A stretch of DNA of 14,048 nucleotides, from the NCBI GenBank assembly GCA_020432595.1, contig JAGQGA010000040.1:1-14048 (forward strand), in the 5' to 3' direction. A program made the position numbers and the translations under genes. The stretch comes from Anaerolineales bacterium. GTDB lineage: Bacteria > Chloroflexota > Anaerolineae > Promineifilales > Promineifilaceae. The notes under the pieces were generated by a model that was given only the letters and a program-made list of their open reading frames with translations, made no database searches and had not been told where the DNA came from. Of this stretch, positions 1 to 13,295 are shown piece by piece. The first letter of the stretch is position 1. The number at the start of each line of letters is the position of its first letter.

Positions 1-58
1 GGCCGTTTTGCGAAGGAAATGAGTTGTCAGCTAACCCCCAAATGCACCCCTTTACCCC

Positions 59-540
59 CTAGATAATACGCTTTGGGTTTTCCAGAACGAGTATGTTGCT
101 TAACAGACGTTGGGGAGAGAAGATAGATAAAAGGTACTGCCCGTTTGGCAGCAGGAGCATAGGCAGAATGTGGTCAAAATGGGTATATTCCACTTCAATA
201 ACAAATACTTGGCGTTTGCTGGGCTGAATAGGCAAATTCACACCAGCGGTTTGGGTTAATTTGGCGACCCAGGCACCGGCGGCGTTGACGACGATGAGAG
301 CCTGAATCACGTCGCCTGATGTAAGTTCAATGCCAGTGATTTGGTTGTGGCTGTGGCACATCCGGCCGACCTCTGCCGTCAAATAAGTTGCACCCAGTTC
401 TATCGCTTTGTGGCGATAGGACAGCAGGGCAGCAAGAGGGGACATGGAGCCATCACGCCGGCCGAACATGGCTCCTACGCAAATCATGTCATAGTTTGCC
501 TGATCTCGCTCAAGATTTTGTTCCTTTAGACTCTTCAAAC
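59..540 (-). pseudogene. Remnant of an FAD-dependent oxidoreductase (DAO/DadA-type), truncated at both ends
   Basis: The reading frame encodes a piece typical of the middle of DAO-family flavoproteins (glycine/D-amino-acid oxidases). It contains FGRRDGSMSP, like the usual DG-x-x-x-P block, then an IELTSGD segment, the VVNAAGAWV signature and a KRQVFVIE strand. The N-terminal FAD-binding GxGxxG region, about 150 residues in family members, is absent. The frame instead runs upstream into the rnhB coding sequence in another phase, so its first 45 or so codons are not meaningful. The frame also stops (TAG at 59-61) soon after a weak LPNGQYL block, so the C-terminal part is missing. Lines in this stretch are near 40% GC, lower than most neighbouring genes. 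I read it as a decayed or recombined fragment. A very divergent short protein starting at an internal ATG is possible but less likely. Confidence 0.6.
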
Positions 541-1163
541 TGTAACGGGGTACGAATGGGAGCAAAGGTGTGGCGATGAACGGCCGTTGCGCCATACTTT
601 GCAATCGCTGCCCGGTGCGCTTCGGTACCATACCCTTTGTGCTGGGCAAAGTTGTACAGTGGGTAAAACGGGTCAAGGGCAATCATCTCCCGGTCGCGGC
701 TCACTTTTGCCAAGATGGAGGCGGCGGCAATGCTCAGGCTGAGGCTGTCGCCGCGCACAATGGCCTGCTGCGGCAAGTTGACACGAGCCAGGCGAATACG
801 GCCGTCAATAAGCAACCCATCGGCAGCGGGGTCTAGCTGCGCCAGTGCCCGCGTCATTGCCAGCCGGGTGGCGGGCAAAATTCCCTCGGCGTCAATCTCT
901 TGGGCTGTGGCTGCCCCGATACCGTAGGCCAAGGCATTGGCAATAATCACGTCAAAGAGGGTTTCGCGGGTAACGGCCGTTAACTGCTTAGAATCATTCA
1001 CCCCCCGCAGTGTTGGTTCGGCACCAGGCGGCAAAATAACCGCCGCTGCCACCACTGGGCCAGCTAATGCCCCTCGGCCGGCCTCGTCCAGCCCGGCCAC
1101 ATATCTCAGTCCATATCGCTCTGCCAGGGCAAGTTCATACGCCAATGTTGGTACCGTTTTCAT
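510..1163 (-). CDS. rnhB: Ribonuclease HII
   Basis: Cytoplasmic endonuclease that cuts the RNA strand of RNA-DNA hybrids and single ribonucleotides misincorporated in DNA. The 217-residue length fits the family. Signature blocks appear in order: GLDEAGRGALAGPVVAAAV at residues 24-42 (catalytic D26 and E27), NDSKQL at 56-61, LLIDG (D120), GDSLSLSIAAASILAKVSRD at 138-157 (D139), and the C-terminal HKGYGT..H at 175-183 followed by HRHTFAPIR at 197-204. D26, E27, D120 and D139 match the four metal-binding acidic residues of the family. The start is ATG at 1161-1163. No strong Shine-Dalgarno sequence precedes it, and a TACACT box about 14 nt upstream could indicate a short leader. The gene holds two copies of the AACGGCCGTT palindrome, both encoding Thr-Ala-Val. 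Its 3' end overlaps the frame of the oxidoreductase remnant. Confidence 0.96.
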   Translation of the reverse strand: MKTVPTLAYELALAERYGLRYVAGLDEAGRGALAGPVVAAAVILPPGAEPTLRGVNDSKQLTAVTRETLFDVIIANALAYGIGAATAQEIDAEGILPATRLAMTRALAQLDPAADGLLIDGRIRLARVNLPQQAIVRGDSLSLSIAAASILAKVSRDREMIALDPFYPLYNFAQHKGYGTEAHRAAIAKYGATAVHRHTFAPIRTPLQFEESKGTKS

Positions 1164-1552
1164 ATTGGGGCAAAGTGTATCACATCATGTGGCTAAATCC
1201 GTGGGAAGTTACGCTTGGGTTGTAAACAATTTCATAGGCAGGGGTTACGGGAACTTACAGGAAACGGCCGTTTCTCTGCTATCCTAAATTCACGACTTCT
1301 TAACGGCCATCCCCGCCCGCACAAACACCCACCACGCAGACCCACAGCCTGCTATGTTTGTGCCAATGCGCCCACGACTCTCCCATACACATAAAGGAGG
1401 TGATACCTTATCACGAGCCATGCCCCCTGTTTGTCATCCGCCAAGGATGATCCGCATCCAACTGCATAGATGAGTGTGTTGGTGTCTGTCTCTCCAACCT
1501 TCATCCTGTCTGTATTTGTACACGTATTGGTATTCAGATTGGAGTATTTTCG
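1164..1552. other. Gene-free leader between rnhB and the protease gene
   Basis: This 389-bp stretch separates divergent genes and should hold promoters for both. It contains an exact AACGGCCGTT (1263-1272) and a degenerate copy (1302-1311, ending CATC). It also has a perfect 9-bp inverted repeat, GCACAAACA (1319-1327) with TGTTTGTGC (1355-1363), and a consensus Shine-Dalgarno-like run at 1393-1404. A weak promoter-like pair, TTACAG (1255-1260) and TATCCT (1280-1285) with 19-bp spacing, straddles the palindrome. No protein of recognisable family is encoded. I do not recognise a known riboswitch. Confidence 0.5.
1393..1414 (+). promoter_or_regulatory. Isolated consensus Shine-Dalgarno sequence within a small hairpin
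   Basis: AAAGGAGGTGAT (1393-1404) is a perfect complement to the usual 3' end of 16S rRNA, far stronger than any ribosome-binding site of the recognised genes here, yet it lies about 150 nt before the next annotated start. GTGATA (1400-1405) and TATCAC (1409-1414) form a 6-bp stem with a 3-nt loop that overlaps it. The following in-frame ATG (1420) opens a 17-codon frame ending in TGA at 1471-1473. That stop overlaps another ATG at 1470, which opens a 33-codon frame rich in V, L and F that runs into the start of the protease gene. This could be a translated leader or chance. Confidence 0.3.
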
Positions 1553-4528
1553 ATGTTGCGTAAAAATTTAACCCGCCAAGTATCCTTTATTCTCATAACC
1601 CTGATTTTGTTGATAACCCCTCTGGTCGCCTTTGCCCAAAACCCTATCCCTGTCACCCGTGACCAACCAGCACAAGCACTATTTGCCCCCGTAGATGAAC
1701 AGGCCAACCGCTTGAACGGCACGCAAACAGCCCAAGCAGATCGCTATGCCAACAAGGCTACAACGGCCGACATGACCATTGTCATGGCCCAACCGCACTT
1801 GCTGCGCAGCGGCAAAATGGTTAACCTCAACCTGTCAGCTGATGTCCAGCTTGCCCTGACACCCGATCTCATTGAGGCACGCAGCGAGCAGGACTTCAGT
1901 TGGTTTGCCCAGGATGAGGCCAACGGTGTCTTTGCCGTTTTGGTTGCCAATGGGGATGTGCTGTTTGGCAATGTGCGAGTCAACGGGGAGCTGTTTCAAA
2001 TTCGCCCGCTTGGTGATGGATTAACGGCCGTTATTCGCGCCGACGAAACGGCCTTCCCCCCCGACCACCCGGCAGATTATGATGAGCAGTTTTTAACGGC
2101 CGTTGCCCAGGAAGCCACCATCGCCCTGGAGGACATCTTCCCCGGCCGTGAAGCCAACCCCGTTGATGACGAAGCCACCTTTGACAACGGCGACACCGTG
2201 AGCGCAGCCGACCTACAGGAAGCTCTGCTCTTTGAAACTGGTGAAAGCAGCGAAAGCGACCTGTTGGAAGAACTGGGAACGGCCGTTGACGACACTCCCC
2301 AGCTTGACGATAGCTCGACCACGAATGACGACACGTTAAACGCTCCGATGGCCCCTCAAGACAAAAGTACCACCATCACTGTCATTGTCGCCTACACCAA
2401 CAACGCCCGCGCTGAAGTGGGTGGCACAGCGAACATGAACGCGCTCATCCAAACGGCCGTTGATGAAGCCAATCAAACCTACCGCAACAGCGGTATCAAC
2501 ACCAGCCTCCACCTCGTCCACCGCTACGAAGTCGCCTACCCCGAAGCCACCATGTCCCTCGACCTCAATCGCTTCCGCACCAGCGGCGACGGCATCATGG
2601 ACAACATCCACACCCAGCGCAACCTGCACGATGCTGACGTAGCCATCCTCATTCGCACCAGCACAGACTCCTGCGGCCTGGCCTACATTTACCCTGCTGC
2701 CACTGATGCCTTTGGTGTCGTTGCCCAAGATTGCGCCACCGGCTACTACTCATTTGCCCACGAAATCGGTCACATCCAGGGTGCCTTGCACAACCCGGAA
2801 GAAAGCAGCAGCAATTGGCCTTTCGCCTATGGGCATGGCTACTACAACAACGCAGATGGCTGGCGCACCGTCATGTCCTACGACTGTCCGAATGATTGTG
2901 ACCGCCTACCCTACTGGTCTAACCCCAACCGCGCTTGGGGCGGCGACCCCATGGGGACAGAAGCGACCCACAACAATGTCCGTGTTCTCAACGAAACGGC
3001 TGGCAAAGTGGCCGGGTTCCGCACCACCGGCATTGCCGACAGCGTTGAAGCAGGAGATCAATTCGGCCGTTCCCTAGCCGAGGGCGACTTCAATGGCGAT
3101 GGCTTTGTAGACCTGGCAATAGGCGTTCCATTTGAAAATCTGTCTACAGGCGGCTTGTTCCCCACCAATATCGGCAACGCAGGCATGGTAAACGTCCTGT
3201 ACAGCACGGCTGGTGGACTATCCACCGTTGACAATCAGGGCTGGCACCAAGATACACCCAACATAGACGGAGCAGCCGAAGCTGGCGACCAGTTTGGCTA
3301 TGCTGTGGCCACAGGTGACTTCAACAACGATGGGTTTGACGATTTGGCTGTCGGAGTGCCGTATGAATCAATTGGCAGCCTGGCTGGGGCTGGTGCAGTT
3401 AATGTTATCTATGGTTCGTCATCTGGGCTGACCAGTTTTGGCGACCAGATTTGGCATCAGAATACAGCCAATGTGGCTGGCGGGTCGGAAGCAGGCGACC
3501 ATTTTGGGGCGGCTCTCGCCACGGGCGACTTTAACAACGATGGGTTCGATGACCTCGCCATTGGCGTACCCGATGAAAGCATTAACAGCAAGAACCATGC
3601 TGGCGCTGTGCATGTGCTGTTTGGCTCGGCGGGAAAATTAACGGCCGTTAATAACCAATTCTGGCATCAGGACAGCACTGGCGTTGTTGGCGGCGTTGAA
3701 ACCGGCGACCTCTTTGGCAGCGCACTCGCTGCTGGCGACTTTGACGGCGACAACTTCGACGACCTCGCCATTGGCGTACCCGATGAGGGCATTGGCACCG
3801 CCAACCACGCTGGTGCCGTCAACGTCCTTTATGGCTCAGCCAGCCGCCTAACCGCCAACGGCGACCAAATGTGGCATCAGAACAGCACCAACATCGTTGG
3901 CGGCTCGGAAAGCGGCGACCACTTCGGCTTCGCCCTCGCCGCAGGTGATTTCAACGGCAACAACCTCTATGACGACCTTGCCATTGGCGTTCCCCATGAA
4001 GGCATTGGCGGCGTGGCTAACGCCGGGGCAGTCAACGTCATCTACGGCAGTTGGAGTGTCGGCTTAGCCAGCGCTAACAACCAGCTATGGCATCAAAACA
4101 GCACCAATGTCGAAGGTGTTGTCGAAGCTGATGATCAGTTTGGCTATAGTCTTGCGGCCGGCAACATCGGCCACATTGGGCGCAGTGCGCTGGTTATTGG
4201 CGTTCCCTATGAAGATTTGGATGCTATCAGTAATAATGGCGTTGTGCAAATCCTCTATAGCAACAACGGTAGCGGGCTTACTGCTACGGGCGACCAAATG
4301 TGGCACCAAGACAGCAATTTTGTTGAAGGGACGGCCGAAGCCAACGATTGGTTTGGTTTTGCTGTGACGGCTGGCGATTTCAACAATGACAACCGCGCTG
4401 ACATTGCCATAGGTGCTCCCGGCGAAGGGGTAGGAAGTGCTAATAACGCGGGGGCTGTGAATGCACTCTACAGCAATGGCACGGCTATCTCGGCAGCGAA
4501 TGACCATTTGTGGCACCAGGACAGTTAG
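1553..4528 (+). CDS. Secreted metzincin metalloprotease (reprolysin-like/M12-M72 type) with seven FG-GAP repeats
   Basis: Probable secreted zinc endopeptidase of 991 residues. A signal peptide is clear: basic MLRKNLTRQ, a hydrophobic core, and VAFAQ near residue 29. Residues about 30-270 form a propeptide-like region ending in an acidic, low-complexity linker. The catalytic domain, about 272-490, has the zinc site HEIGHIQGALH with H403, E404, H407 and H413, then a metzincin Met-turn TVMSY (M441) and a YWSNP segment typical of bacterial reprolysin-like and peptidyl-Asp peptidases. Residues about 496-991 are seven FG-GAP repeats of about 70 residues, enough for one seven-bladed propeller. Most carry a calcium-binding loop of the form DFNxDGxxD. 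The protein ends right after the last WHQDS motif, with no sorting domain or membrane anchor. ATG 1553 has a good ribosome-binding site (TTGGAG, spacing 8). The substrate is unknown. Confidence 0.92.
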   Translation: MLRKNLTRQVSFILITLILLITPLVAFAQNPIPVTRDQPAQALFAPVDEQANRLNGTQTAQADRYANKATTADMTIVMAQPHLLRSGKMVNLNLSADVQLALTPDLIEARSEQDFSWFAQDEANGVFAVLVANGDVLFGNVRVNGELFQIRPLGDGLTAVIRADETAFPPDHPADYDEQFLTAVAQEATIALEDIFPGREANPVDDEATFDNGDTVSAADLQEALLFETGESSESDLLEELGTAVDDTPQLDDSSTTNDDTLNAPMAPQDKSTTITVIVAYTNNARAEVGGTANMNALIQTAVDEANQTYRNSGINTSLHLVHRYEVAYPEATMSLDLNRFRTSGDGIMDNIHTQRNLHDADVAILIRTSTDSCGLAYIYPAATDAFGVVAQDCATGYYSFAHEIGHIQGALHNPEESSSNWPFAYGHGYYNNADGWRTVMSYDCPNDCDRLPYWSNPNRAWGGDPMGTEATHNNVRVLNETAGKVAGFRTTGIADSVEAGDQFGRSLAEGDFNGDGFVDLAIGVPFENLSTGGLFPTNIGNAGMVNVLYSTAGGLSTVDNQGWHQDTPNIDGAAEAGDQFGYAVATGDFNNDGFDDLAVGVPYESIGSLAGAGAVNVIYGSSSGLTSFGDQIWHQNTANVAGGSEAGDHFGAALATGDFNNDGFDDLAIGVPDESINSKNHAGAVHVLFGSAGKLTAVNNQFWHQDSTGVVGGVETGDLFGSALAAGDFDGDNFDDLAIGVPDEGIGTANHAGAVNVLYGSASRLTANGDQMWHQNSTNIVGGSESGDHFGFALAAGDFNGNNLYDDLAIGVPHEGIGGVANAGAVNVIYGSWSVGLASANNQLWHQNSTNVEGVVEADDQFGYSLAAGNIGHIGRSALVIGVPYEDLDAISNNGVVQILYSNNGSGLTATGDQMWHQDSNFVEGTAEANDWFGFAVTAGDFNNDNRADIAIGAPGEGVGSANNAGAVNALYSNGTAISAANDHLWHQDS
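3050..4528 (+). repeat. In-gene tandem array of seven FG-GAP units (~210 bp period)
   Basis: The (A/S/T)-G-D-x-FG blocks start at about 3050, 3281, 3491, 3701, 3911, 4127 and 4340. Spacings are 231, 210, 210, 210, 216 and 213 bp, so the middle units are of equal length. Each unit reads roughly GDxFG-x-A-x-A-x-GDFNxDxxDDLAIGVPxE, followed by GAVNVxYGS and a WHQ(D/N)S linker. Unit 6 has lost the acidic loop (AGNIGHIGRSALVIG), so it probably does not bind calcium. The DNA of the units has diverged, so this is old duplication of protein blades and not a recent expansion. Confidence 0.9.
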
Positions 4529-4560
4529 CTTAACGGCCGTTTCTCACGACCAATAAAACA

Positions 4561-4595
4561 AAAACGAGTGTCGTGGATTCACGATGCTCGTTTTT
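4561..4595 (+). terminator. Rho-independent terminator after the protease gene
   Basis: A 15-nt left arm (4561-4575, AAAACGAGTGTCGTG) pairs with 4580-4594 (CACGATGCTCGTTTT) across a 4-nt loop. The two DNA mismatches become G-U pairs in RNA, so the stem is fully paired. It ends in five T residues, and the A-run on the left side would let it work on the other strand as well. It lies 33 bp after the protease stop, just beyond an AACGGCCGTT copy at 4532-4541. Confidence 0.85.
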
Positions 4596-4700
4596 GCTGT
4601 AACCAGCCAAGCAGCTTTCAAAGATATTGATCGGGCGTTTTCCTTGTCTCCCAACCACCTCTACCCTATCATTTCCTCATACCGATGTCAGGAGATGCAG

Positions 4701-5108
4701 ATGGAACCAAATCACTTTTTAGGCAGTTGGGAACTGGACAGCCAACAATCGCGCTATCAATTGGGCGAACCGCCGTTAACGGGAACGTATCGCATTGCAG
4801 CGGAAGGGCAACAGCTTTGGTTTTACATGGCGTGGACGGCCGTTAATGGCAGCAGTCATGAAGCCAGTTATGCGGGTACGCCGGATGGCAGGGATTATGC
4901 GCTGGCAGAAACGGCCGTTGCCGATGCCGTTTGTCTCTTCTTTGAAGACCCCCTCAACCTTGTTTCTACCGCCAAACGGGACGGTGCCCTCATCCTCCAC
5001 GCCCGCCGCACCCTCGCCGACGACCTCAACACCATGACCGTCGTCCAATCCGGCCACACCGAAGCGGGGCCGTATGCCAATTTTTCGGTCTACAAGCGCA
5101 TTGCCTGA
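4701..5108 (+). CDS. Hypothetical small lipocalin-like protein
   Basis: A 135-residue protein of unknown function. It opens with FLGSWELDSQQSRYQLGEPPLTGTYRI, resembling a recurring bacterial hypothetical family (GTWKLNxxKSKY...P.SGT..I) predicted as a small beta-barrel. Later blocks such as YAGTPDGRDYAL and the closing YANFSVYKRIA match the usual pattern of that family, D-G-K-D-Y and a Y-x-x-x-x-V-Y-x-K/R end. There is no signal peptide or membrane segment, so it is probably cytoplasmic. I chose ATG 4701 because GGAG (4691-4694) sits 6 nt upstream. The frame stays open back to ATG 4584, but that start lies inside the terminator stem and adds residues unlike the family. It contains AACGGCCGTT at 4910 and a 9/10 copy at 4835. 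It is probably transcribed from its own promoter within 4596-4690. Confidence 0.75.
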   Translation: MEPNHFLGSWELDSQQSRYQLGEPPLTGTYRIAAEGQQLWFYMAWTAVNGSSHEASYAGTPDGRDYALAETAVADAVCLFFEDPLNLVSTAKRDGALILHARRTLADDLNTMTVVQSGHTEAGPYANFSVYKRIA

Positions 5109-5164
5109 TGATTGGAGATTAGAGATTGGAGATTCAACCCAATCTCCAATCCCCAATCTCTCCT
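5109..5164. terminator. GATTGGAGATT-family hairpin between convergent genes
   Basis: GATTGGAGATT (5124-5134) and AATCTCCAATC (5141-5151) form a perfect 11-bp stem around a 6-nt CAACCC loop. Further direct copies of the unit flank it on both sides (5110-5120 and about 5151-5159). It fills almost the whole gap between the stop codons of two convergent genes, so it could end transcription from both sides. There is no long T-run, so classical intrinsic termination is uncertain. Related units occur near 6785-6850 and 7927-7995. Confidence 0.6.
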
Positions 5165-6547
5165 CTAAACCACCTTCCCCGGATTCAAAATATTATTCGG
5201 GTCAAACAGCCGCTTAATACTGCTCATTACCGCAATCGCCCCTTCCCCGTGTTCATAAACCATATATTTTTGCTTGCCAATCCCCACCCCATGCTCACCG
5301 GTGCAGGTGCCGCCCAGTGCCAGTGCCTTTTGCACCACTCGATCATTAAACGTTTGCAGTACCGCCTGCTGCGCCGCGTCGTCCTTGCGGCCAAAGGCCA
5401 CCGTGTGCAAATTGCCATCCCCGGCGTGGCCGAACAACGCCCCCTTGACGTGTAGCTCGTCAAACAGGCTGTTGGTGTAGGCAGCCAGCACCGGGTATTG
5501 GGAGATAGGCACGGCGACATCGGTAATCAGATAGATGCTGTCGGGGTAAATGCGGAACAAAATTTCGCCCAGCTTGTGCCGCCCTTCCCACAGCCGATCT
5601 CGTTCATCGCGCCCCACGCCCGCTTCAAAATAAGTGCAACCGCAATCATCACATACCTGCCGCACCAGCTCCAGTTCGGCAGTGATGGTGGCGGCACTGG
5701 CTCCGTGAAATTCCATGAGCAATAACGGCCGTTCTGGTAAATCCACTGAATCCAGCGTGTTCATATACCGCACCGAATCCGCATCCAGCAGCTCCAAAGC
5801 TGCCGGGTTTAGCCCAGAGCCAATAATGCCATACACCGCCTCCGCCGCCGCTGGGGTTGAATCAAATGCCGCCACCACCGCGCTAAAATGCTCCGGCAGC
5901 GGGTGTAGCTTCAGCGTTGCCTCCGTAATCAGCCCCAGCGTCCCCTCCGACCCCGTAAACAGATGGGTCAAATCATACCCCGCCGACTGCTTCACCGAGC
6001 GCGACCCCGTGCGAATGACCTCTCCATTCGCCAACACCACTTCCAGTGCCATGATGTTGTCGCGGGTTGCCCCATAGCGCACCGTGCGCGTTCCCGCCGC
6101 ATTGTTCGCCACCATGCCGCCAACGCTGGCATTGGCTCCGGGGTCGGGGGCAAAAAAGAGGCCATATTGCGCCAGGGTTTTGTTCATATCCTTGTAGAAA
6201 ATCCCCGGCTGCACCGTTACCTGAAAATCATTTTGGTGGACGGCCACAATGCGGTTCATGCGACCAAAATCAATGACAATGCCGCCGCGCAGGGGAATGG
6301 TGTTGCCTTCCAAACTGCTGCCCGCCCCCCAGCCGGTAATGGCAACCTGGTTCTCATTTGCCAGCCGTGCAATCTGGCTCACCTGCGCCGTCGTCTCCGG
6401 CCAAACCACCAGGTCAGGCAGGTGGGCGGTGTGGGAAGATTGGTCTTTGGCGTGTAAATTGCGGTCGCTGTCGGCACTGGAAACATGCTCCGCGCCAACA
6501 ATTTGTTGTAAGGCGTTGGTTAATTGGGTAAGGGTTGTTATATCCAT
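5165..6547 (-). CDS. FAD-linked oxidase, D-lactate dehydrogenase / glycolate oxidase GlcD type
   Basis: A 460-residue flavoprotein that most likely oxidises a D-2-hydroxyacid, such as D-lactate or glycolate, and passes electrons to a quinone or other carrier. The FAD-binding domain (about residues 44-215) shows VVWPETTAQVS, GWGAGSSLEGN (72-82), PDPGANASVGGMVANNAAGTRTVRYG (134-159) and SAGYDLTHLFTGSEGTLGLITEATL (188-212). The C-terminal oxidase domain carries DVAVP (343-347), GHAGDGNLH (373-381), GTCTGEHGVG (413-422) and the closing FDPNNILNPGKV. Length and motifs are closer to the LDHD/D-lactate dehydrogenase branch than to larger fused enzymes. No Fe-S partner (GlcE or GlcF) is adjacent. ATG 6545-6547 has AGGA 6 nt upstream. 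One AACGGCCGTT copy is at 5724, read here as Arg-Pro-Leu. The exact substrate cannot be settled from sequence. Confidence 0.9.
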   Translation of the reverse strand: MDITTLTQLTNALQQIVGAEHVSSADSDRNLHAKDQSSHTAHLPDLVVWPETTAQVSQIARLANENQVAITGWGAGSSLEGNTIPLRGGIVIDFGRMNRIVAVHQNDFQVTVQPGIFYKDMNKTLAQYGLFFAPDPGANASVGGMVANNAAGTRTVRYGATRDNIMALEVVLANGEVIRTGSRSVKQSAGYDLTHLFTGSEGTLGLITEATLKLHPLPEHFSAVVAAFDSTPAAAEAVYGIIGSGLNPAALELLDADSVRYMNTLDSVDLPERPLLLMEFHGASAATITAELELVRQVCDDCGCTYFEAGVGRDERDRLWEGRHKLGEILFRIYPDSIYLITDVAVPISQYPVLAAYTNSLFDELHVKGALFGHAGDGNLHTVAFGRKDDAAQQAVLQTFNDRVVQKALALGGTCTGEHGVGIGKQKYMVYEHGEGAIAVMSSIKRLFDPNNILNPGKVV

Positions 6548-6587
6548 TTCACATCCTATTTGGCAAAATTTTTAGTTGCTATACAGG

Positions 6588-6669
6588 TGTCATTTCGAGG
6601 TCCTCCGAGAAATCCCATTGACATCGCCAAGGGAGCGGGATTTCTCCTCGAAGACTCGTCGAGATGACA
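6588..6669. repeat. Long imperfect inverted repeat (TGTCATTTCGA...GAGATGACA type)
   Basis: The left arm (6588-6616) starts TGTCATTTCGAGG and ends GAGAAATCCC. The right arm (6637-6669) starts GGGATTTCTC and ends TCGAGATGACA. The arms match over about 29-33 nt with a few mismatches and a 20-nt loop. Elements beginning TGTCATTTCGA and with GAGAAATCCC/GGGATTTCTC cores are widespread intergenic palindromic repeats in diverse bacteria, from general knowledge. It may be a small non-autonomous mobile repeat or a transcribed hairpin. Confidence 0.8.
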
Positions 6670-6784
6670 TGTTTGGGTCGAAAATTGATTTATGGTTGCC
6701 AAGCCTGGATAGTTACCGTATTTCTATGAACTTCTAAACCATCTTTTGTCTAGGCTATGAGTATAACATGATTCCATAGAGAAA

Positions 6785-6850
6785 GAGATTAGGGATAAAA
6801 AGTTGCGTGCCGCCAGTGCCTAATCTCCAATCTCCCAATCTCCAATCTGC
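6785..6850. repeat. GATTGGAGATT-family repeat upstream of galT
   Basis: GAGATTAGG (6785-6793) pairs with CCTAATCTC (6819-6827) as a 9-bp stem with a 25-nt loop. The right arm continues as repeated CAATCTCC units up to about 6848. The unit is the complement of the GATTGGAGATT repeats at 5110-5160 and close to those at 7927-7995. It lies within 50 bp of the galT start and could affect its leader RNA. Confidence 0.6.
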
Positions 6851-6889
6851 ATTTGCCCAATTTTGCCAAACCGCCTACCATTCCAGCCA

Positions 6890-8011
6890 ATGGACGAGTT
6901 TAACGGCCGTTGGGAGCAACGCTACCACCCCCTGCGCGACGAATGGGTCATTGTGGCCGCCCACCGGCAAAACCGGCCGTGGCGCGGCGAAATGGCTGTG
7001 TCCAACCGGGTAATTACCCCACCCTACCAACCCGACTGCTACTTCTGTCCCGGTAACCAGCGGGTGGGTGGGGTGCAAAATCCGCCCTATGACGGCGTGT
7101 TTGTGTTTGACAACGACCACCCGTGTGTGGGTGTCAACGCCCCGACGGATTTGCCCCCGCCCACTGGTATCTACCGCAATCGGCCGGCCGACGGGATTGC
7201 CCGCGTCATTTGCTACAGCCCGCGCCATGATTTAACGCTGGCCGAGTTGTCACCGGTTGAAGTGGAAAACCTGGTGGGGGTGTGGCAGCAGCAAATGGCG
7301 GATTTGGGGAAACGGCCGTTTATCAACCACGTCCTCATTTTTGAAAACAAAGGGGAAGCCGTGGGCGTGTCCAACCCGCATCCGCACGGGCAAATCTATG
7401 CCACTAACTTTGTCTTTAAGACGATTGAGACAGAAGTGAAGGCGAACTACCGCCATTGGCAGGAGACGGGGCGGGTGCTGTTTCAGGATATTTTGGCGGC
7501 GGAGTTGGCGGATGGGGCGCGGGTGGTGTGTGAGAATAAAACGGCCGTTGCTTTCATCCCCTACTTTGGCCGCTACGCCTACGAACTATTTGTCGCCCCC
7601 AAAGCGACCCACCCCACCGTTGCCACTCTTTCGGCTGCCGAGATCGTGGATTTTGCCGCCATTTTGCAGGAAGTGACCATCCGGCTGGACAATTTATGGC
7701 AAATGCCGTTCCCCTATGTGATGCCGCTGCACCAGGCCCCCACCGACGGCGGCGATTATCGCCCCTTTCATTTCCACATCGAATTTCACCCGCCGCTGCG
7801 AAAGCCCAATTTGCTCAAATATTTGGCCGGGCCAGAAATTGGCGGCGGCAATTTTCTCAGCGACACGGTGCCGGAGGAGAAGGCGGCGGAGTTGCGGGGG
7901 GTGGCGAGGGTGCATTATAAAAAGAAGGAGATTGGGAGATTGGGAGATTGGGAGACTGTGGAGAGTCTCCCAGTCTCTGAGTCTCCCAGTCTCTTACGAC
8001 CTGATGCTTGA
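6890..8011 (+). CDS. galT: Galactose-1-phosphate uridylyltransferase
   Basis: Transfers UMP between UDP-glucose and a sugar-1-phosphate, classically galactose-1-phosphate in the Leloir pathway. It is a cytoplasmic HIT-superfamily enzyme. Numbered from ATG 6890 (373 residues), it shows [21 protein letters not shown] (11-31), the zinc cysteines C50 and C53 in DCYFCPGN, H113 in [26 protein letters not shown] with H164-P-H166 (H166 the nucleophile, same numbers as in E. coli), and [22 protein letters not shown] (293-314). C50, C53, H113 and H164 fit the class I zinc site. I prefer ATG 6890 to the in-frame TTG at 6863, although neither has a good ribosome-binding site. The last 27 or so residues come from a GGGAGATT repeat and are unlike the family. 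The stop overlaps the next gene by 8 nt. It contains three AACGGCCGTT copies. Confidence 0.95.
7927..7995 (+). repeat. GGGAGATT repeat array with strong hairpin at the galT 3' end
   Basis: Tandem GGGAGATT units (7927-7949) run into a hairpin. The arm 7944-7957 pairs with 7964-7977 over 14 bp (one G-U) around a 6-nt loop, and further AGTCTCCC units follow to about 7995. It lies inside the galT reading frame and encodes the tail beginning [10 protein letters not shown]. It ends 8 bp before the start of the next gene. The structure could attenuate or insulate expression between the two overlapping genes. Confidence 0.75.
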
Positions 8012-9014
8012 CATTCACGATTTACTTCAGCCTATTTTGACCTTGCACAACGAGATACGAACGGCCGTTACTGCCACCAGCGAAACCGCCCAGCTAGACG
8101 ACATGGCCGCCGTGGTGCATGACGGTGACGGCGACACCATCTTTGCCATTGACCGGGTGAGCGAGGAGCGGCTAGTTGATTTTTTCGTCCGCGAGGTTGC
8201 CAGCCACACCCCCATTGTGCTGATTGCCGAGGGGCTGGAAGGGGGAGAAATGGTGCTGCCGCTGGGGGCCAAAGCTGAAGAGGCGGCGTGGCGCATCATT
8301 GTAGACCCAATTGACGGGACGCGGGGGTTGATGTACCAAAAGCGGAGCGGCTGGATTTTGACGGGGGTGGCTCCTAACCGGGGAACGGCAACGTCTCTGC
8401 AAGACATCGTGCTGGCGATACAAACAGAGATCCCGCTGGTGAAGCAGCATTTGTCGGACCAACTGTGGGCTGTGAGGGGTGAGGGGGTAACGGCCGTTCG
8501 CCACAACCGCCTCACCCAGCAAACCACCCCCCTCGCCCTGCACCCCTCCCGCGCCACCACCATCGCCCACGGCTTTGCCATGATCGCCCGCTTTTTCCCT
8601 GGAGCGCGGGAAGAGTTGGCGGCGATTGATGAGGAGATTGTGCTGGGGGCACTGGGGCCGGTGCAGCCGGGCAAAAGCCACTGCTTTGAAGACCAATATA
8701 TTTGCACTGGGGGGCAGTTGTATGAGCTGATGGCGGGGCGGGATCGGTTCGTGGCGGATTTACGGCCGTTAATGGAAACCCTGCTGGCGCGGCGCGGGCT
8801 ACAGCTTGGCATCTGCTGCCACCCCTACGACCTCTGCACCGCGCTCATTGCTCAAGAAATGGGGGTTGTCCTGACCAATGAAACCGGCGGCGTGCTGGAT
8901 GCACCGCTAACTGTTGAGGCCGATGTTGGCTGGGTTGGCTACGCCAATCCTGCCATTCAGCAGCAAATTGAGCCGCTGCTACACGCGGCACTGCAAAGAA
9001 GGAGGTTGTTGTAA
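8004..9014 (+). CDS. Inositol-monophosphatase / FBPase-superfamily phosphatase
   Basis: A 336-residue member of the lithium-sensitive, metal-dependent sugar-phosphatase superfamily. Visible motifs are [14 protein letters not shown] (41-54, D50), the glutamate of IAEG (E76), the signature [11 protein letters not shown] (D101, D104, T106), and a C-terminal [13 protein letters not shown] followed by TGGVLDAPL, corresponding to the WDxAAG region. It is longer than a typical IMPase (about 260). The start is ATG 8004, which overlaps the galT stop by 8 nt. The frame is open further upstream, but that sequence overlaps galT and has no homology. Overlap with galT suggests co-expression and a sugar- or nucleotide-phosphate substrate, though the exact one is unknown. 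It carries AACGGCCGTT at 8060 and 8489 and a 9/10 copy at 8761. Its stop directly abuts the stop of xisI. Confidence 0.85.
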
Positions 9015-9353
9015 TTAGGCAACTGCAAACTCGGTAAACGGCCGTTTAAACGGCGCTTGAAAACCTAACACAATATCTGAAGGTGGCACACCGCGTTCAA
9101 CTAATTCTGTGGCAATACCGGGTTCGGTAAAATCACGCTGAACCCAAATTTTCCCATCTTTGATGTCTACATGGACGATAACGCCATATGTTCTTTGAAA
9201 GTCGTCTTCCCAGCCAATATCAACAACCTGATAATGATCACGGACGGGATCGAAAATAAGTTGCGTTTCAATGGGTTCTGATCCTGCAACCTGCTGGGTA
9301 TATTCGGCCAGAATTTCTTGCACAAACTTGCGGTACTGTTCTATTTTTTCCAC
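9015..9353 (-). CDS. xisI: XisI family protein
   Basis: A 112-residue protein of the XisI family, named after the Anabaena fdxN-element excision controlling factor. The whole length matches the family pattern: an N-terminal YRKFVQEILAEY helix, a middle segment with FDPVRDHYQVVDIGWEDD, then DGKIWVQRDFTEPGIATELVERGVPPSDIVLGF and the conserved end TEFAVA. The start is GTG at 9351-9353, preceded by AGGAGA at a spacing of about 7 nt. It overlaps the xisH stop by 13 nt, so translation is probably coupled. An extended palindrome, AAACGGCCGTTT (9036-9047), falls in the conserved C-terminal region, read as Lys-Arg-Pro-Phe. The biochemical role of XisI outside heterocyst-forming cyanobacteria is unknown. 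Confidence 0.93.
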   Translation of the reverse strand: MEKIEQYRKFVQEILAEYTQQVAGSEPIETQLIFDPVRDHYQVVDIGWEDDFQRTYGVIVHVDIKDGKIWVQRDFTEPGIATELVERGVPPSDIVLGFQAPFKRPFTEFAVA

Positions 9354-9757
9354 TTGATTATCTCCTGTCGAATGGGATCGTAAACAATTAAGCGGATCTG
9401 ATAACGGTCTATTGTTTTTTGAGCAAATGGTGTCGTAAAAAAATCATCGAAGGTGTCACGAGGAATAGCAAGGTAAAGCAGCCGAGTTGAGCCAGATAAC
9501 TCTAGCAGATAATCATAGTTAAGATATTGACCTAGAGCCAAATGGAAATCATTAATAGCTGATGCCCCTAAGAAACTTTTGATTTCAATGGCAATTTGCT
9601 CCTTATCCCGATTTGCGAGAATAAGGCGTTCAGCACCTAAATCAACTCGAACACGAGTCTGTGCATATTCTAGGAGCAGTGGATCATCTGTAATTGTCCA
9701 GCCGTCTTTTTGCAAAGCTATTTTGACAGCCTCATGGAATAAATCCTTTTTCGACAT
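9341..9757 (-). CDS. xisH: XisH family protein (predicted PD-(D/E)xK nuclease fold)
   Basis: A 138-residue XisH-family protein. It opens with KDLFHEAVKIALQKDGWTITDDPL and carries VDLGAERLILA, AIEIKSFLG, ALGQYLNY and YLAIPRDTFDDFF, then ends IRLIVYDPIRQEIIKW, as in cyanobacterial homologues. D39, E58-x-K60 and Q77 are arranged like a PD-(D/E)xK nuclease core, so DNA cleavage is a reasonable prediction but not shown. It is the first gene of a two-gene unit with xisI. Sample lines are about 42% GC, against about 58% in the neighbouring phosphatase gene. It contains no AACGGCCGTT copy, which fits recent acquisition. A promoter with no room for a leader lies directly upstream. Confidence 0.93.
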   Translation of the reverse strand: MSKKDLFHEAVKIALQKDGWTITDDPLLLEYAQTRVRVDLGAERLILANRDKEQIAIEIKSFLGASAINDFHLALGQYLNYDYLLELSGSTRLLYLAIPRDTFDDFFTTPFAQKTIDRYQIRLIVYDPIRQEIIKWKK

Positions 9758-9763
9758 ACAATT

Positions 9764-9794
9764 ATTGTAGCATAGTTGGCGTTGGATTGATCAA
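9764..9794 (-). promoter_or_regulatory. Candidate promoter for xisHI, probably leaderless
   Basis: On the minus strand TTGATC (9794-9789) and TACAAT (9769-9764) form a sigma-70-like pair with a 19-bp spacer. The -10 box ends 6 nt before the xisH ATG, so transcription would begin at or next to the start codon and give a leaderless mRNA. No Shine-Dalgarno sequence precedes this ATG, in agreement. The spacer is slightly long, so this is tentative. Confidence 0.5.
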
Positions 9795-9811
9795 GGTGAG
9801 GATATTGGCAA

Positions 9812-11158
9812 ATGTTAGCTGATGTGGGACATCTGATGGCGTTGGTTCAAAGGCGAAAGGGGTCTTTCTTTTTGCCTACTGCACCCATTTGTGTAGCACG
9901 GGCACCGGGGCGGTTGGATGTGATGGGGGGGATTGCTGATTATTCGGGGTCGCTGGTGCTGGAGATGCCGATTGCTGAGGCGACGCTGGCGGCGGTGCAG
10001 CTAGACGCGGAGCCGACGGTGCGGATTGTCAGTTTGGGCGGGGATCGGGTGGGAGAAACGGCCGTTTTTTCCCTCCCCCTCACCGATTTGCTTGCTAACG
10101 ATGAGCCGATTCGCTATGAAACGGCCGTTGCCTATTTTCGCCAGCGTCAACCGTGGGCGGCCTACATCGCCGGAGCCTTTGTGGTGCTGATGCGTGAAAA
10201 AGGGGTGCGCTTTGAACAGGGGGCGCGGCTGCTGCTCCATTCCGATGTCCCCGAAGGCAAAGGGGTTAGCTCCTCGGCCGCTGTGGAAGTGGCGGCTATG
10301 CAGGCCATTACCGCTGCCTATGGCATCGAGTTGACTCCCCGCGAGCTGGCACTGCTGTGCCAAAAGGTGGAAAACCACGTCGCCGGTGCCCCTTGCGGCA
10401 TCATGGATCAGATGACGGTGGTGGCGGGGCAGCCCAATCAACTGCTAGCACTGCTGTGCCAGCCGACCGAAATCCAGGGCACCGTCCCCATCCCTGACGA
10501 ACTTAGTTTTGTTGGGCTTGATTCTGGTATTCGCCACGCCGTTTCCGGGGCCGATTATGGCTCGGTGCGGGTGGGGGCGTTTATGGGGTACAAGGTGCTG
10601 CAAACGGCCGTTAACCACACCTGGGATGGCTATTTAGCAAACCTCACCCCGTCCGAATTTGAGCAGCATTACCGCCACCTGCTGCCAGAAACGATGCGCG
10701 GCGACGATTTTTTGCGGCAATATGGCGAACTACCCGACACGGTGACGCAGGTTGACCCCACCCGCACCTACGCCGTGCGCCAGCCCACGCTCCACCCCAT
10801 CTACGAGCATTTTCGCGTCCAAACCTTTGCCCGACTATTGGCAGGCGACCCGCTTGCCAACGCGCCCATGATGGGCGAACTGATGTACCAATCCCACGCC
10901 AGCTATTCGGCTTGTGGGCTAGGGTCAGATGGCACCGATTTACTGGTGGCACTGGCGCGAGCTACGTCAGGGGTTCATGGGGCAAAAATTACGGGGGGTG
11001 GTAGCGGGGGGACAGTGGTGGTGCTGGGAGAAACGGCCGTTATTGCCCAAGCCACCGCCCACATCACCCAACAATACGCCGCCCAAACCGGCCACACTCC
11101 CCACATCTTCACCGGCTCCTCCCCCGGTGCTGCCCAATTTGGCACCCTCAGGTTCTAG
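9812..11158 (+). CDS. GHMP sugar kinase, L-arabinokinase/galactokinase-like
   Basis: Phosphorylates a free sugar at C1. The 448 residues resemble the kinase domain of plant L-arabinokinase (ARA1) throughout, more than typical bacterial GalK: PGRLDVMGGIADYSGSLVLEMPI (32-54), PWAAYIAG (114-121), PEGKGVSSSAAVEVAAM (147-163), LLCQKVENHVAGAPCGIMDQM (181-201, catalytic Asp probably D199), DSGIRHAVSGADYGSVRVGAFMG (237-259), PIYEHFRV (329-336), GELMYQSHASYSACGLGSDGTD (355-376), KITGGGSGGTV (392-402) and GSSPGAAQFG near the end. The three GHMP motifs are complete. The plant enzyme's N-terminal glycosyltransferase-like domain is absent. galT lies upstream on the same strand, separated by the phosphatase gene and xisHI, suggesting sugar to sugar-1-phosphate to UDP-sugar salvage. 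ATG 9812 has a weak GAGG about 10 nt upstream. Four AACGGCCGTT copies are present. Galactose remains a possible substrate. Confidence 0.88.
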   Translation: MLADVGHLMALVQRRKGSFFLPTAPICVARAPGRLDVMGGIADYSGSLVLEMPIAEATLAAVQLDAEPTVRIVSLGGDRVGETAVFSLPLTDLLANDEPIRYETAVAYFRQRQPWAAYIAGAFVVLMREKGVRFEQGARLLLHSDVPEGKGVSSSAAVEVAAMQAITAAYGIELTPRELALLCQKVENHVAGAPCGIMDQMTVVAGQPNQLLALLCQPTEIQGTVPIPDELSFVGLDSGIRHAVSGADYGSVRVGAFMGYKVLQTAVNHTWDGYLANLTPSEFEQHYRHLLPETMRGDDFLRQYGELPDTVTQVDPTRTYAVRQPTLHPIYEHFRVQTFARLLAGDPLANAPMMGELMYQSHASYSACGLGSDGTDLLVALARATSGVHGAKITGGGSGGTVVVLGETAVIAQATAHITQQYAAQTGHTPHIFTGSSPGAAQFGTLRF

Positions 11159-11183
11159 GCTTTGTTGACTTTTCAGAATTTGA

Positions 11184-11251
11184 ACCGCAAAATTCGCAGA
11201 GAGCGCAAAGAAAGAGAAGAAAATAAGCAAAATCTTTGTGCCGTTTGCGGT
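11184..11251. repeat. Imperfect palindromic repeat (ACCGCAAA...TTTGCGGT) between convergent genes
   Basis: ACCGCAAA (11184-11191) pairs with TTTGCGGT (11244-11251). GCGCAAAG (11203-11210) pairs with CTTTGTGC (11234-11241) with one G-U. The arms are of unequal spacing, so the hairpin has an internal bulge. Intergenic repeats built of CGCAGAG and CGCAAAG words occur in many bacteria, from general knowledge. It lies between the convergent stops of the sugar kinase and potA and may help end both transcripts. The remaining bases of 11159-11292 hold no gene. Confidence 0.65.
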
Positions 11252-11292
11252 GAAATCTGCTTCTTTTTGCCAATTGCCCCCGCCCCATCATC

Positions 11293-12501
11293 CTAACTGG
11301 TCAAAATTTGCGCCTCATGCGGCTGCCAGACCCCATAAACGGCATCGCCAACCTTGAAGCGGGTGTCATAGCGGCCACTCAGGTTTTGCACCCGCACAAT
11401 CAAGCTTTCGCCATTAGGCAGCCTGATCTGATAGCGAATATCGGTGCCGATGTAGATGGATTCAACAACCGTACCGGGCAAGGCCACCAGCCCTTCCCCC
11501 TGCAAATAGTCGCCAACGGTGCTGTTGGCAGCCGGGATGTTGCCTTGAAACAGCCGCCGCAGCTCTGCGTCGTTTGCCCCTTGTGCTTGCAGGTCGGCCA
11601 CAGTTGCCATTGGGTAAAGGCTAATTTTTTCCGGCCGAATGGCGAGGGTGACGGCCTGGCTGAGCGAAACGGCCGTTTCCGGTGGCTTCACAGCAATCTC
11701 ATTCTCGGCCACGGTGAGGCGGTAGGTGGGGGTGGTTTGGGACAAACGGCCGTTCAGGAAATTCGTCTCCCCAATAAAATCCGCCACAAACCGATTCGAC
11801 GGGCTTTCATAAATCTCACGCGGTGCCCCCATCTGCTGAATCACCCCATCCTGCATGACCGCAATCCGATCCGACATGGTGAGAGCCTCTTCCTGGTCGT
11901 GGGTCACATAGATAAACGTAATCCCAAGCTGGCTTTGCAGTTGCTTTAGCTCAAGCTGCACCTCTTTCCGCAGCTTCAAATCCAACGCCCCTAGCGGCTC
12001 ATCCAGCAGCAGCACCGTTGGCTCATTGACCAACGCCCGCGCTAGCGCAATGCGCTGCTGCTGCCCGCCGGAAAGCTGAGTGGTACGCCGGTTCTCATAG
12101 CCGCCCATTCGCACCAGCTCCAACGCCTCTTTCACCCGCCGCTCCCGTTCCGGCGCAGCCACCCGCCTGATTTTTAGCCCAAACCCCACGTTTTGCCCCA
12201 CGTTGAGGTGGGGAAAGAGGGCGTAGTTTTGAAAGACGGTGTTAACCGGCCGTTTGTTGGCTGGCACATCGGTCATTGGCTCACCGGCAATGGTTATCTG
12301 CCCGGCCGTTGGGTTTTCAAACCCGGCAATCATTCGCAGGGTGGTTGTTTTGCCGCAGCCGCTTGGCCCCAGAAAGGTGAAAAATTCGCCGCGCCATATT
12401 TGCAGATTCATGGCATTAACGGCCGTTACCCGCTGCGCCCCTCTCCCCGCAGGAAACACCTTGCTCACATCCTTCAACTCAACCGCAACAACCTCAGCCA
12501 T
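11293..12501 (-). CDS. potA: Spermidine/putrescine-type ABC transporter ATP-binding protein
   Basis: ATPase that powers import by the PotBC permease pair at the cytoplasmic membrane. In the 403-residue numbering that counts the GTG, motifs are Walker [10 protein letters not shown] (46-54), Q-loop Q92 in [14 protein letters not shown] signature LSGGQQQR (144-151), Walker B VLLLDEP (164-170), D-loop GALD, and H202 in [15 protein letters not shown]-terminal TOBE-type domain follows ([23 protein letters not shown]). A segment of about 35 residues before it ([15 protein letters not shown]...) looks like an insertion. I chose ATG at 12499-12501, in a TGATG overlap with the potC stop and with GGAGG 7 nt upstream. 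A GTG one codon earlier is possible. It is the last gene of the operon. It holds three exact AACGGCCGTT copies. The transported substrate could also be another cation or small molecule. Confidence 0.93.
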
Positions 12502-13292
12502 CACTTCGCCTCCCCTGCCCGGCGCAGCCGTTCAGACAGAAAAATTATCAACACCGAACCCACCATAATCAACGCCCCCAACGCCACCACAATCGGAATC
12601 CGCCGGGGAAAGCGCAGTTGCGAATACATATAAACCGGCAATGTGGCGTTCGTCCCCACCACAAACACGCTCATGGCATACTCGTCAAATGACGTCGTAA
12701 ACGCCGTCAAAAACGCCGCCACCAAAGCCGGTAAACTCATCGGCAAAATTACCTGAAGCTGCGCCCCCCAAAAGCTCGCCCCCAAATCCATCGCCGCCTC
12801 TTCCATGTTGGCCGGGAACCCCGCCAACCGCGACGACACAATCAGCAGCACAATCGGGATATTGATCACCACATGCCCCAGCCCCACCGTCAGCAAACTT
12901 AGCTCCACGTCAAACACCTGCCGATACAAAATCAGCAGAGCCACCCCAATCACCACCGACGGAATCACCAGCGGCAGCGCCGAAATCCCGATAAAAATGT
13001 TTTTGCCGGGAAACTCAAAGCGGTTTATGGCAATGGCCGCCATCGTCCCCAGCACCGTAGCCGCCAGCGATGACCACAACCCCACCCAGATGCTGTTCCA
13101 CAGCGACTTCAAAAGCTCGCCCGCTCCGAATAGCTCCTGATACCAGCGCAGCGTAAACCCCGTCAGCGGAAAGCGCAAATTAGTTGAATCATTAAAGGAA
13201 AACACAATGAGCAAAAGAATCGGCAAGTACAAAAACAGAGCCACCAGCCAATAGTAAAGTGACCCCAGCGAAAAGCGGTTTCTCAGTTCCAT
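12501..13292 (-). CDS. potC: Spermidine/putrescine-type ABC transporter permease
   Basis: A 263-residue inner-membrane permease of the PotC type, forming the channel with PotB. It has a first membrane helix at about residues 13-32 ([20 protein letters not shown]), the FNDS motif, then about five more hydrophobic segments. The ATPase-coupling EAA loop reads [22 protein letters not shown], with the usual Gly and the following Pro. The length is typical of the family. ATG 13290-13292 lies 3 nt after the potB stop, and the stop overlaps the potA ATG, so the three genes form one operon. Neither potC nor the visible part of potB contains the AACGGCCGTT palindrome. Confidence 0.93.
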
Positions 13293-13295
13293 GCT

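Follow-up and report, generated by a model that had tools for sequence, protein, structure and literature searches.

Highly iterated palindromes (HIPs) have been described in cyanobacteria, where they are framed as palindromic, GC-rich sequences (at least 75% GC in the HIPs that replace others) present at about 1000-2000 copies per Mb, well in excess of expectation, both within and between genes (PMC4390886). The cyanobacterial HIP1, GCGATCGC, reaches hundreds to thousands of copies per Mb, with palindromic extensions in some genomes, and HIP1 genomes carry a GATC-specific Dam plus a methyltransferase for the core; Elhai proposed methyl-directed mismatch repair as its cause and in 2015 still called its purpose a mystery (PMC4390886). 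Alternate cyanobacterial HIPs are GGCGCC, rCCGGy and GCsGC, for each of which Elhai reports a matching methyltransferase, and the derivatives GGGATCCC and TCGATCGA (PMC4390886). Among Chloroflexi, a methylome study reported GANTC, TTAA and GCWGC motifs in three draft genomes, two of them CL500-11-like Anaerolineae (PMC6329791), and in Neisseriaceae the dialects of the DNA uptake sequence (DUS) share a conserved CTG core (PMC3630211). Phrase searches of the open-licence PMC literature found no HIP described in Chloroflexota. Here we analyse a palindrome, AACGGCCGTT, that is iterated in a 14,048-nt stretch of DNA of an Anaerolineales bacterium (assembly GCA_020432595.1, contig JAGQGA010000040.1, positions 1 to 14,048), hereafter the window, and in related genomes of the phylum Chloroflexota.

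This palindrome is a member of the HIP class but is not HIP1, its sequence being unrelated: it differs from GCGATCGC, and the closest matches of a window protein are to Chloroflexota. As the class is framed in the cyanobacterial HIP account, the GC-rich palindrome (CGGCCG, ACGGCCGT), the number of copies per Mb, the spread over genic and intergenic DNA and the general presence of Dam all agree with it. The palindrome shares with HIP1 high iteration, a GC-rich palindromic sequence with palindromic extensions and, it appears, the pairing of Dam with a candidate core methyltransferase. It differs from HIP1 in sequence, in phylum and in that GATC lies outside the motif, so that the link with Dam cannot be mere site overlap, as it could in HIP1. 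The candidate core enzyme is also of another kind, an amino-methyltransferase of NotI-system type and not the m5C enzyme that acts on CGATCG in HIP1 genomes. Like the alternate cyanobacterial HIPs in the same account, the palindromes vary by lineage; unlike them, they keep one core in all enriched genomes while the arms vary.

Results

The palindrome in the window

Recounting confirmed 24 exact copies of AACGGCCGTT between positions 579 and 12427, as had been claimed in a sequence-only reading of the window, a density of 1700 per Mb. The equal-base expectation of 0.013 copies given there is also correct; dinucleotide-preserving shuffles contained 0.03 copies on average and none of 200 reached 24. 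Markov models gave observed-to-expected ratios (O/E) of 523 at order 2 and 19 at order 4. Synonymous-codon shuffles of 12 window open reading frames (ORFs; n = 50) retained a mean of 0.4 copies and at most 2, against 20 observed; the ORF caller took the longest non-overlapping frames and is crude, and the division of the window into coding and non-coding DNA is therefore rough. The flanks of the copies appear unrelated to each other, in line with the earlier remark that no long flanks are shared. No 10-bp palindrome other than AACGGCCGTT occurs more than once in the window.

The CGGCCG core occurs 43 times in the window, against 11 expected from an order-2 model; 27 of these cores extend to ACGGCCGT, and 24 of the 27 to AACGGCCGTT, of which four one-mismatch forms are present. 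GGCC is scarce in some other contexts (TGGCCA, for example, occurs once against 12.4 expected). The GC content is 100% for CGGCCG, 75% for ACGGCCGT and only 60% for the full AACGGCCGTT. The spacing of the copies has a coefficient of variation (CV) of 0.65 (n = 23), and 17 of the 20 copies in the ORFs used stand in the same reading frame, encoding T-A-V.

Distribution across genomes

A species-genome collection was searched for two copies of AACGGCCGTT exactly 63 bp apart, a scan that detects dense genomes only. It returned 44 stretches, 43 of them in 16 genomes (hereafter pair-scan genomes). The titles of 15 of these genomes name Anaerolineae, Anaerolineaceae or Chloroflexi/Chloroflexota, and that of the sixteenth says only bacterium. 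The remaining stretch, from a GC-rich Microbispora, holds only those two copies in 8 kb and is chance-like. Whole-genome counts were made in 298 genomes from the class of one pair-scan genome, drawn from a larger group (the class genomes). AACGGCCGTT occurs 2306-3261 times in five of them (G008, G009, G010, G014 and G016; 443-795 per Mb), 83-840 times in six (G167, G209, G238, G257, G285 and G303) and at most 24 times in the other 287.

Enrichment of the core was expressed as the ratio of the whole-genome CGGCCG count to that of the equal-composition palindrome GCCGGC. Judged by eye, the ratio is below 1 in most class genomes and at least 1.5 in 37 of the 298; it is 6.2 in G016, 9.8 in G010, 26 in G285, 159 in G167 (21019/132) and 271 in G183 (13814/51). 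Fourteen class genomes were classed as strongly enriched (a ratio of 2.5 or more together with a density of 1.5 or more cores per kb) and hold 1727-5127 cores per Mb; G126, G244 and G281 satisfy the ratio cut-off and fail that on core density. GCCGGC itself is nearly absent from the two highest-ratio genomes (51 in the 8.0 Mb of G183, 132 in the 4.1 Mb of G167), and in the stretches read both genomes are also poor in GCGCGC, and G183 in GGGCCC. Five other genomes (G068, G141, G255, G283 and G287) are nearly without CGGCCG, with 2-35 copies against 192-1479 of GCCGGC, which perhaps reflects site avoidance, possibly under restriction.

The genome-wide count against a Markov expectation that the sequence-only reading had called for was thus made in related genomes; some of these gave a strongly positive result, the majority did not. 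In the pair-scan genome G007 the O/E of AACGGCCGTT is 194 at order 2, and at order 4 it is 17-19 across G007 and the window; codon shuffles of G007 kept 78 copies against 695 observed, so that codon usage is excluded as the full explanation there as in the window. Of the two outcomes that the sequence-only reading had named as refuting it, a genome-wide count near the Markov expectation (tested in relatives) and enrichment fully due to codon and dinucleotide usage, neither was obtained. The spread over coding and non-coding DNA was likewise borne out in the window and in related genomes: by the crude ORF caller, ACGGCCGT occurs in G007 at 1.66 per kb inside ORFs and 1.26 per kb outside. Spacing in G007 is near-Poisson (CV 1.0), and one palindrome is met per about 0.5-0.7 kb in the window, G007, G183 and G111. 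Iteration of the palindrome is thus confined to a minority of Anaerolineae-class genomes but is not peculiar to one organism. Samples of 3-20 kb from 20 Dam-bearing genomes (19 with a CGGCCG ratio below 1.5, and G214 at 2.3) and 20 genomes free of Dam matches, two samples being unreadable, contained no other comparable HIP.

A common core with genome-specific arms

Flanks of the core were surveyed in 19 genomes over stretches of 20-60 kb and in a further five over 4-14 kb. The most frequent flank pair is A_T in G007 (80% of cores) and, at 42-67%, in G009, G010, G011, G012, G014, G016, G238, G257 and G303. It is T_A in G111 (74%) and G_C in G183 (86%), while no pair exceeds 18% in G167, G285, G209, G052, G228, G131 and G084. 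Longer arm forms are AACGGCCGTT, TACGGCCGTA and GACGGCCGTC in G007, CGCGGCCGCG in G183, and TTCGGCCGAA and ATCGGCCGAT in G111. The shared unit is thus the CGGCCG core, kept across enriched genomes, and the palindromic arms (A_T, G_C or T_A) are genome-specific. The likeness to HIP1 drawn in the sequence-only reading therefore stands as regards iteration throughout the genomes of relatives, and has to be amended as regards the unit, AACGGCCGTT being one form among several. Sequences one letter off CGGCCG are depleted in G167 (0.21-0.76 of the order-2 expectation) and weakly so in G007 and G183 (0.62-1.19).

Conservation in place and protein footprint

In aligned stretches of related genomes, ACGGCCGT is kept at its position more often than are other 8-mers with the same GC content. 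It is intact in the aligned partner at 46 of 55 sites against 3172 of 4901 for the 8-mers in G257/G238 (93% identity), at 6 of 7 against 222 of 651 in G011/G257 (83% identity) and at 10 of 24 against 207 of 1821 in G009/G303 (72% identity); each site is taken from both sides in these counts, and the p values are hence too small. The ten-letter form was intact in only 2 of 6 cases.

The palindromes also leave their mark on proteins, in which a single tripeptide (TAV, SAE or AAA) is in excess. In G007 no tripeptide exceeds expectation by more than TAV, with 394 occurrences where dipeptide frequencies predict 106, and 375 of the 394 are encoded by ACGGCCGTN. In the window all 18 TAV are encoded by ACGGCCGTN, and the excess is second to that of WHQ, which is repeat-borne. 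The top tripeptide is SAE in G111, where the TCGGCCGA form prevails (59 against 14.5 expected), and AAA in G183, where the form is GCGGCCGC (194 against 84); the motif-coded share was counted for TAV only. TAV stands at expectation in pooled control stretches (59 against 59.8).

Two methyltransferases in enriched genomes

D12-type methyltransferases are found in most enriched genomes, and 12 of the 16 pair-scan genomes have a strong PF02086 match (E < 1e-50). They fall into two distant types, both of which score as the Dam subfamily; one is very close (E 2.4e-90) to PDB chains named DNA adenine methylase, which we take to be E. coli Dam. This likeness suggests that the D12 enzymes recognize GATC. 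Matches to TIGR00571 of at least 240 bits occur in 79 of the 298 class genomes, namely 11 of the 14 strongly enriched and 68 of the 284 others; above the curated cut-off, the figures are 12 of 14 and 120 of 284.

The second enzyme, of 650-700 aa (hereafter the ~670-aa enzyme), is by sequence an amino-methyltransferase with weak likeness to DUF1156 proteins. It is present in 13 of the 16 pair-scan genomes, fragments included. At 47% identity or more it occurs in 10 of the 14 strongly enriched genomes and in 26 of the 284 others, a figure that may be low since at most four candidates per genome entered this first class-wide scoring; counting any hit at E 1e-20, the others amount to 49 of 284 and the strongly enriched remain at 10 of 14. 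Dam and the ~670-aa enzyme occur together in 9 of the 14 strongly enriched genomes and in 5 of the 284 others. A ratio of at least 1.5 is clustered on the tree of the ~670-aa enzyme: when the pair-scan genomes G002, G003 and G007 are also labelled as enriched, the label requires 6 changes, where shuffled labels require 11.1.

Two other methyltransferase families were considered as the common factor and rejected. The m5C methyltransferases (PF00145) were found in 7 of the 16 pair-scan genomes and 8 of the 11 others searched, and no PF00145 group was common to many genomes, a motif filter having lost 16 of 32 proteins in one of the comparisons. Beta-class PF01555 proteins, a family that includes N4-cytosine enzymes as its name says, formed one close group in five genomes and none that spanned the set (30 of about 100 places).

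NotI-family and repair-gene neighbours

A gene for a NotI-family nuclease (PF12183) adjoins that of the ~670-aa enzyme in G009 and G092 (179 and 195 bits) and in G183 (43 bits). NotI cuts GCGGCCGC, which contains CGGCCG, and this site is the arm form that makes up the 86% of cores in the stretches of G183 that were read. BLAST and a profile built from these three genes detected a NotI-like neighbour in 16 of 30 loci of the ~670-aa enzyme, the match being weak in G276 and split over two frames in G208; the loci carry at most 1.5 kb of flank, and six have cut flanks. In this respect they resemble NotI-family restriction-modification systems; unlike these, many enriched genomes show no nuclease gene by the enzyme, and the sites are abundant instead of avoided. 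No NotI-like gene was seen in the 460 kb of G007 examined, where the ~670-aa enzyme lies among P450-like, glycosidase-like and transporter-like ORFs, named from reading their sequences.

Genes of DNA repair also occur in these neighbourhoods. The nurA gene (PF09376) adjoins the gene of the ~670-aa enzyme in G303, G183 and G002, and in G303 the two overlap by the starts of the ORF caller. The dam gene adjoins that of a HerA-type helicase in G183, and in G006 one small ORF separates dam from a HerA-like frame that is itself cut by the end of the locus. G227, a genome without CGGCCG enrichment, has herA, dam and a nurA match inside a span of 6 kb. NurA and HerA-type helicases act on DNA ends, and these neighbourhoods, seen in few loci, hint at DNA-end processing.

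ORFs of 200-224 aa, alike by eye, recur beside nurA (L139, 8749-9423; L167, 8022-8663; L268, 12991-13593) and may encode a partner of HerA-NurA; those of L139 and L268 were scanned and match no Pfam family. In G007 an ORF for a PD-(D/E)XK nuclease (PF20472; L184, 2290-2790) begins about 10 bp after dam, and in G227 the ORF after dam (L268, 17315-17857) has a PF20472 match below the cut-off. A PDDEXK_11 nuclease gene beside dam was rejected as a general feature, BLAST of the loci examined having found it only in G007.

Genes of the window and phage-like contigs

The gene content of the window is ordinary. Copies at 579..588 and 972..981 lie in an RNase HII ORF (510-1163, minus strand), and one at 1263..1272 lies between it and an M12-like peptidase / FG-GAP ORF (1553-4528, plus), which holds those at 2023..2032, 2095..2104, 2278..2287, 2452..2461 and 3640..3649. 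The ninth copy (4532..4541) stands directly past the peptidase stop codon, the tenth (4910..4919) in an ORF without Pfam match (4584-5108) and the eleventh (5724..5733) in an FAD-linked oxidase ORF (5165-6547, minus). Three more (6902..6911, 7311..7320 and 7540..7549) fall in a galT-like ORF (6863-8011, plus), two (8060..8069 and 8489..8498) in an inositol-phosphatase-like ORF (7839-9014, plus) and one (9037..9046) in a xisI ORF (9015-9353, minus). A galactokinase-family ORF (9812-11158, plus), a GHMP kinase, contains the copies at 10057..10066, 10120..10129, 10603..10612 and 11032..11041, and an ABC-ATPase ORF (11293-12504, minus) the last three, at 11668..11677, 11745..11754 and 12418..12427. 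An FAD-dependent oxidoreductase domain is also present at the left end of the window.

The galactokinase-family protein, the only one searched for this purpose, matches proteins from an Ardenticatenaceae metagenome-assembled genome (MAG; 91% identity) and a Chloroflexota MAG (87%). By this one protein, the window comes from an Ardenticatenaceae-like member of the Chloroflexota; a homologue was found in 1 of 21 enriched genomes searched (G004, 63% identity). Homologues of xisI and xisH (PF08869, PF08814), which are named for a cyanobacterial excision element, lie adjacent at 9015-9757 on the minus strand, amid ordinary genes.

In a viral collection, 18 stretches hold two AACGGCCGTT 50-80 bp apart. 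L005, L012, L015 and L016 have just two copies each in GC-rich DNA and are chance-like, and dense contigs such as L001, L008 and L017 carry 1.2-1.5 copies per kb. The dense contigs are viral or proviral, judged by collection and content; L008 and L017 have genes for portal or terminase proteins and for head-maturation/capsid proteins and carry the palindrome as densely as cellular-genome loci. The palindrome might serve as a host-assignment signature for phage contigs.

Discussion

Iteration, the core-and-arms structure, conservation in place, the protein footprint and the co-occurrence with two methyltransferase genes are direct observations. The palindrome probably marks sites for a DNA-methylating enzyme, and among the causes listed in the sequence-only reading a methyltransferase site is the one best supported, by the co-occurrence of the methyltransferase genes and the NotI-type neighbours. 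Most likely, a cytosine DNA methyltransferase of the NotI-family restriction-modification kind would act on the CGGCCG core. The ~670-aa enzyme is the candidate, as the family of the neighbouring nuclease suggests, and the methylated base would be C because CGGCCG holds no A. This enzyme, often without a nuclease gene beside it, would work alongside a GATC-type Dam, and the methylated sites would be retained because methyl-directed DNA repair or recombination uses or favours them; we infer that repair is the use of the sites. Taken as a whole, namely that AACGGCCGTT is a HIP akin to HIP1 with a methylated CGGCCG core and is tied to repair, we regard this reading as about equally likely to be right or wrong.

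Several points weigh against it. The main weakness is that the ~670-aa enzyme was not found in six motif-rich genomes in which all candidates were scored: G004, G010 and G013, two of which (G004 and G013) were called motif-rich from sampled loci only, and the strongly enriched G167, G285 and G209. G004 also shows no PF00145 match and just one weak PF01555 match. Draft incompleteness may explain some of these missing enzymes, not surely all. Conversely, G193, G166 and G092 have close orthologues of the enzyme, each with an adjoining NotI-like gene, without CGGCCG enrichment. Motif IV of the enzyme is DPPY, which bears on the assignment to cytosine, this motif being usual in adenine methyltransferases too. 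The assignment to the NotI family depends on Pfam, since neither NCBIfam nor a sequence search of the PDB gave a match. One contrast does speak for the reading: on a large branch of the enzyme tree, picked after the tree was seen, 9 of the 10 loci that lack the nuclease gene have a ratio of at least 1.5, and 2 of the 7 that have it (p 0.035). Over all 30 loci this contrast weakens to 10 of 14 and 5 of 16 (p 0.066), and G009 and G183 have both the nuclease gene and CGGCCG enrichment. nurA lies next to the enzyme in three genomes only, other genes flanking it in G007, G014, G016, G009 and G257. Finally, besides the possible undercount among the other genomes, the analyst set both the 240-bit and the 47%-identity cut-off, and the co-occurrence counts are uncorrected for kinship; as the genomes share ancestry, Fisher p values overstate the association.

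The alternative that we consider most plausible, though doubtful, is a footprint without function, left by gene conversion or by a repair bias (of a Vsr-like system or of methyl-directed mismatch repair) that would convert near-matches to CGGCCG and then maintain them. It would agree with the amino-acid sequences altered to hold the motif, with the palindrome in phage-like contigs and with the depletion of one-off sequences, which is marked in G167 but weak in G007 and G183; differing arms round one core would, however, require a changing repair specificity. A footprint of Vsr very-short-patch repair in particular was rejected as a general cause, since a search for vsr (PF03852) in 25 enriched genomes and 25 others found it in just 4 and 1 of them, respectively. 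That the sites bind an abundant chromosome-organising homodimer, whose arm contacts drifted between lineages, seems quite unlikely to us. The commonest arm pair is itself palindromic where the preference is clear, and the near-Poisson spacing in G007 (with the CV of 0.65 in the window, n = 23), the occurrence in coding and non-coding DNA and the density in the window, G007, G183 and G111 would suit such a protein, but it leaves unexplained both the link with two methyltransferases and a core equal to that of the NotI family.

A DNA-uptake signal with the arms as dialects is very improbable. The parallel lies in a conserved core with lineage-specific surroundings and thousands of copies, as in the Neisseriaceae DUS (PMC3630211), to which conservation in place may be added. 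Against it, contigs that carry capsid, portal and terminase genes hold the motif at high density. The motif is also palindromic, unlike known uptake signals, whereas the Neisseriaceae DUS is non-palindromic and tied to uptake, and we know of no methyltransferase link of that DUS. The shared T-A-V frame of 17 of the 20 window copies in the ORFs used might suggest that the motif owes its frequency solely to the usage of codons, amino acids or dinucleotides. This explanation is refuted by the codon shuffles (0.4 against 20 in the window, 78 against 695 in G007) and by the order-4 O/E of 17-19, the motif being also present outside ORFs and TAV at expectation in control stretches, and we give it practically no credence.

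Returning to the methylated, repair-associated core, a bolder and rather unlikely extension is that Chloroflexota and Cyanobacteria independently reached a two-methyltransferase code, in which Dam and a domesticated restriction methyltransferase would write a palindromic grid that a HerA-NurA-type resection machine would read as methylation-dependent Chi-like sites. Such a grid, if true, would be demanding enough to rewrite protein sequences. A second HIP system in another phylum offers an independent test of the first, and features common to both are likely to matter; both appear to share Dam plus a second methyltransferase fitting the core. The arms, the presence or absence of the NotI-like nuclease and the protein footprint make the choice between selection and drive testable by comparison.

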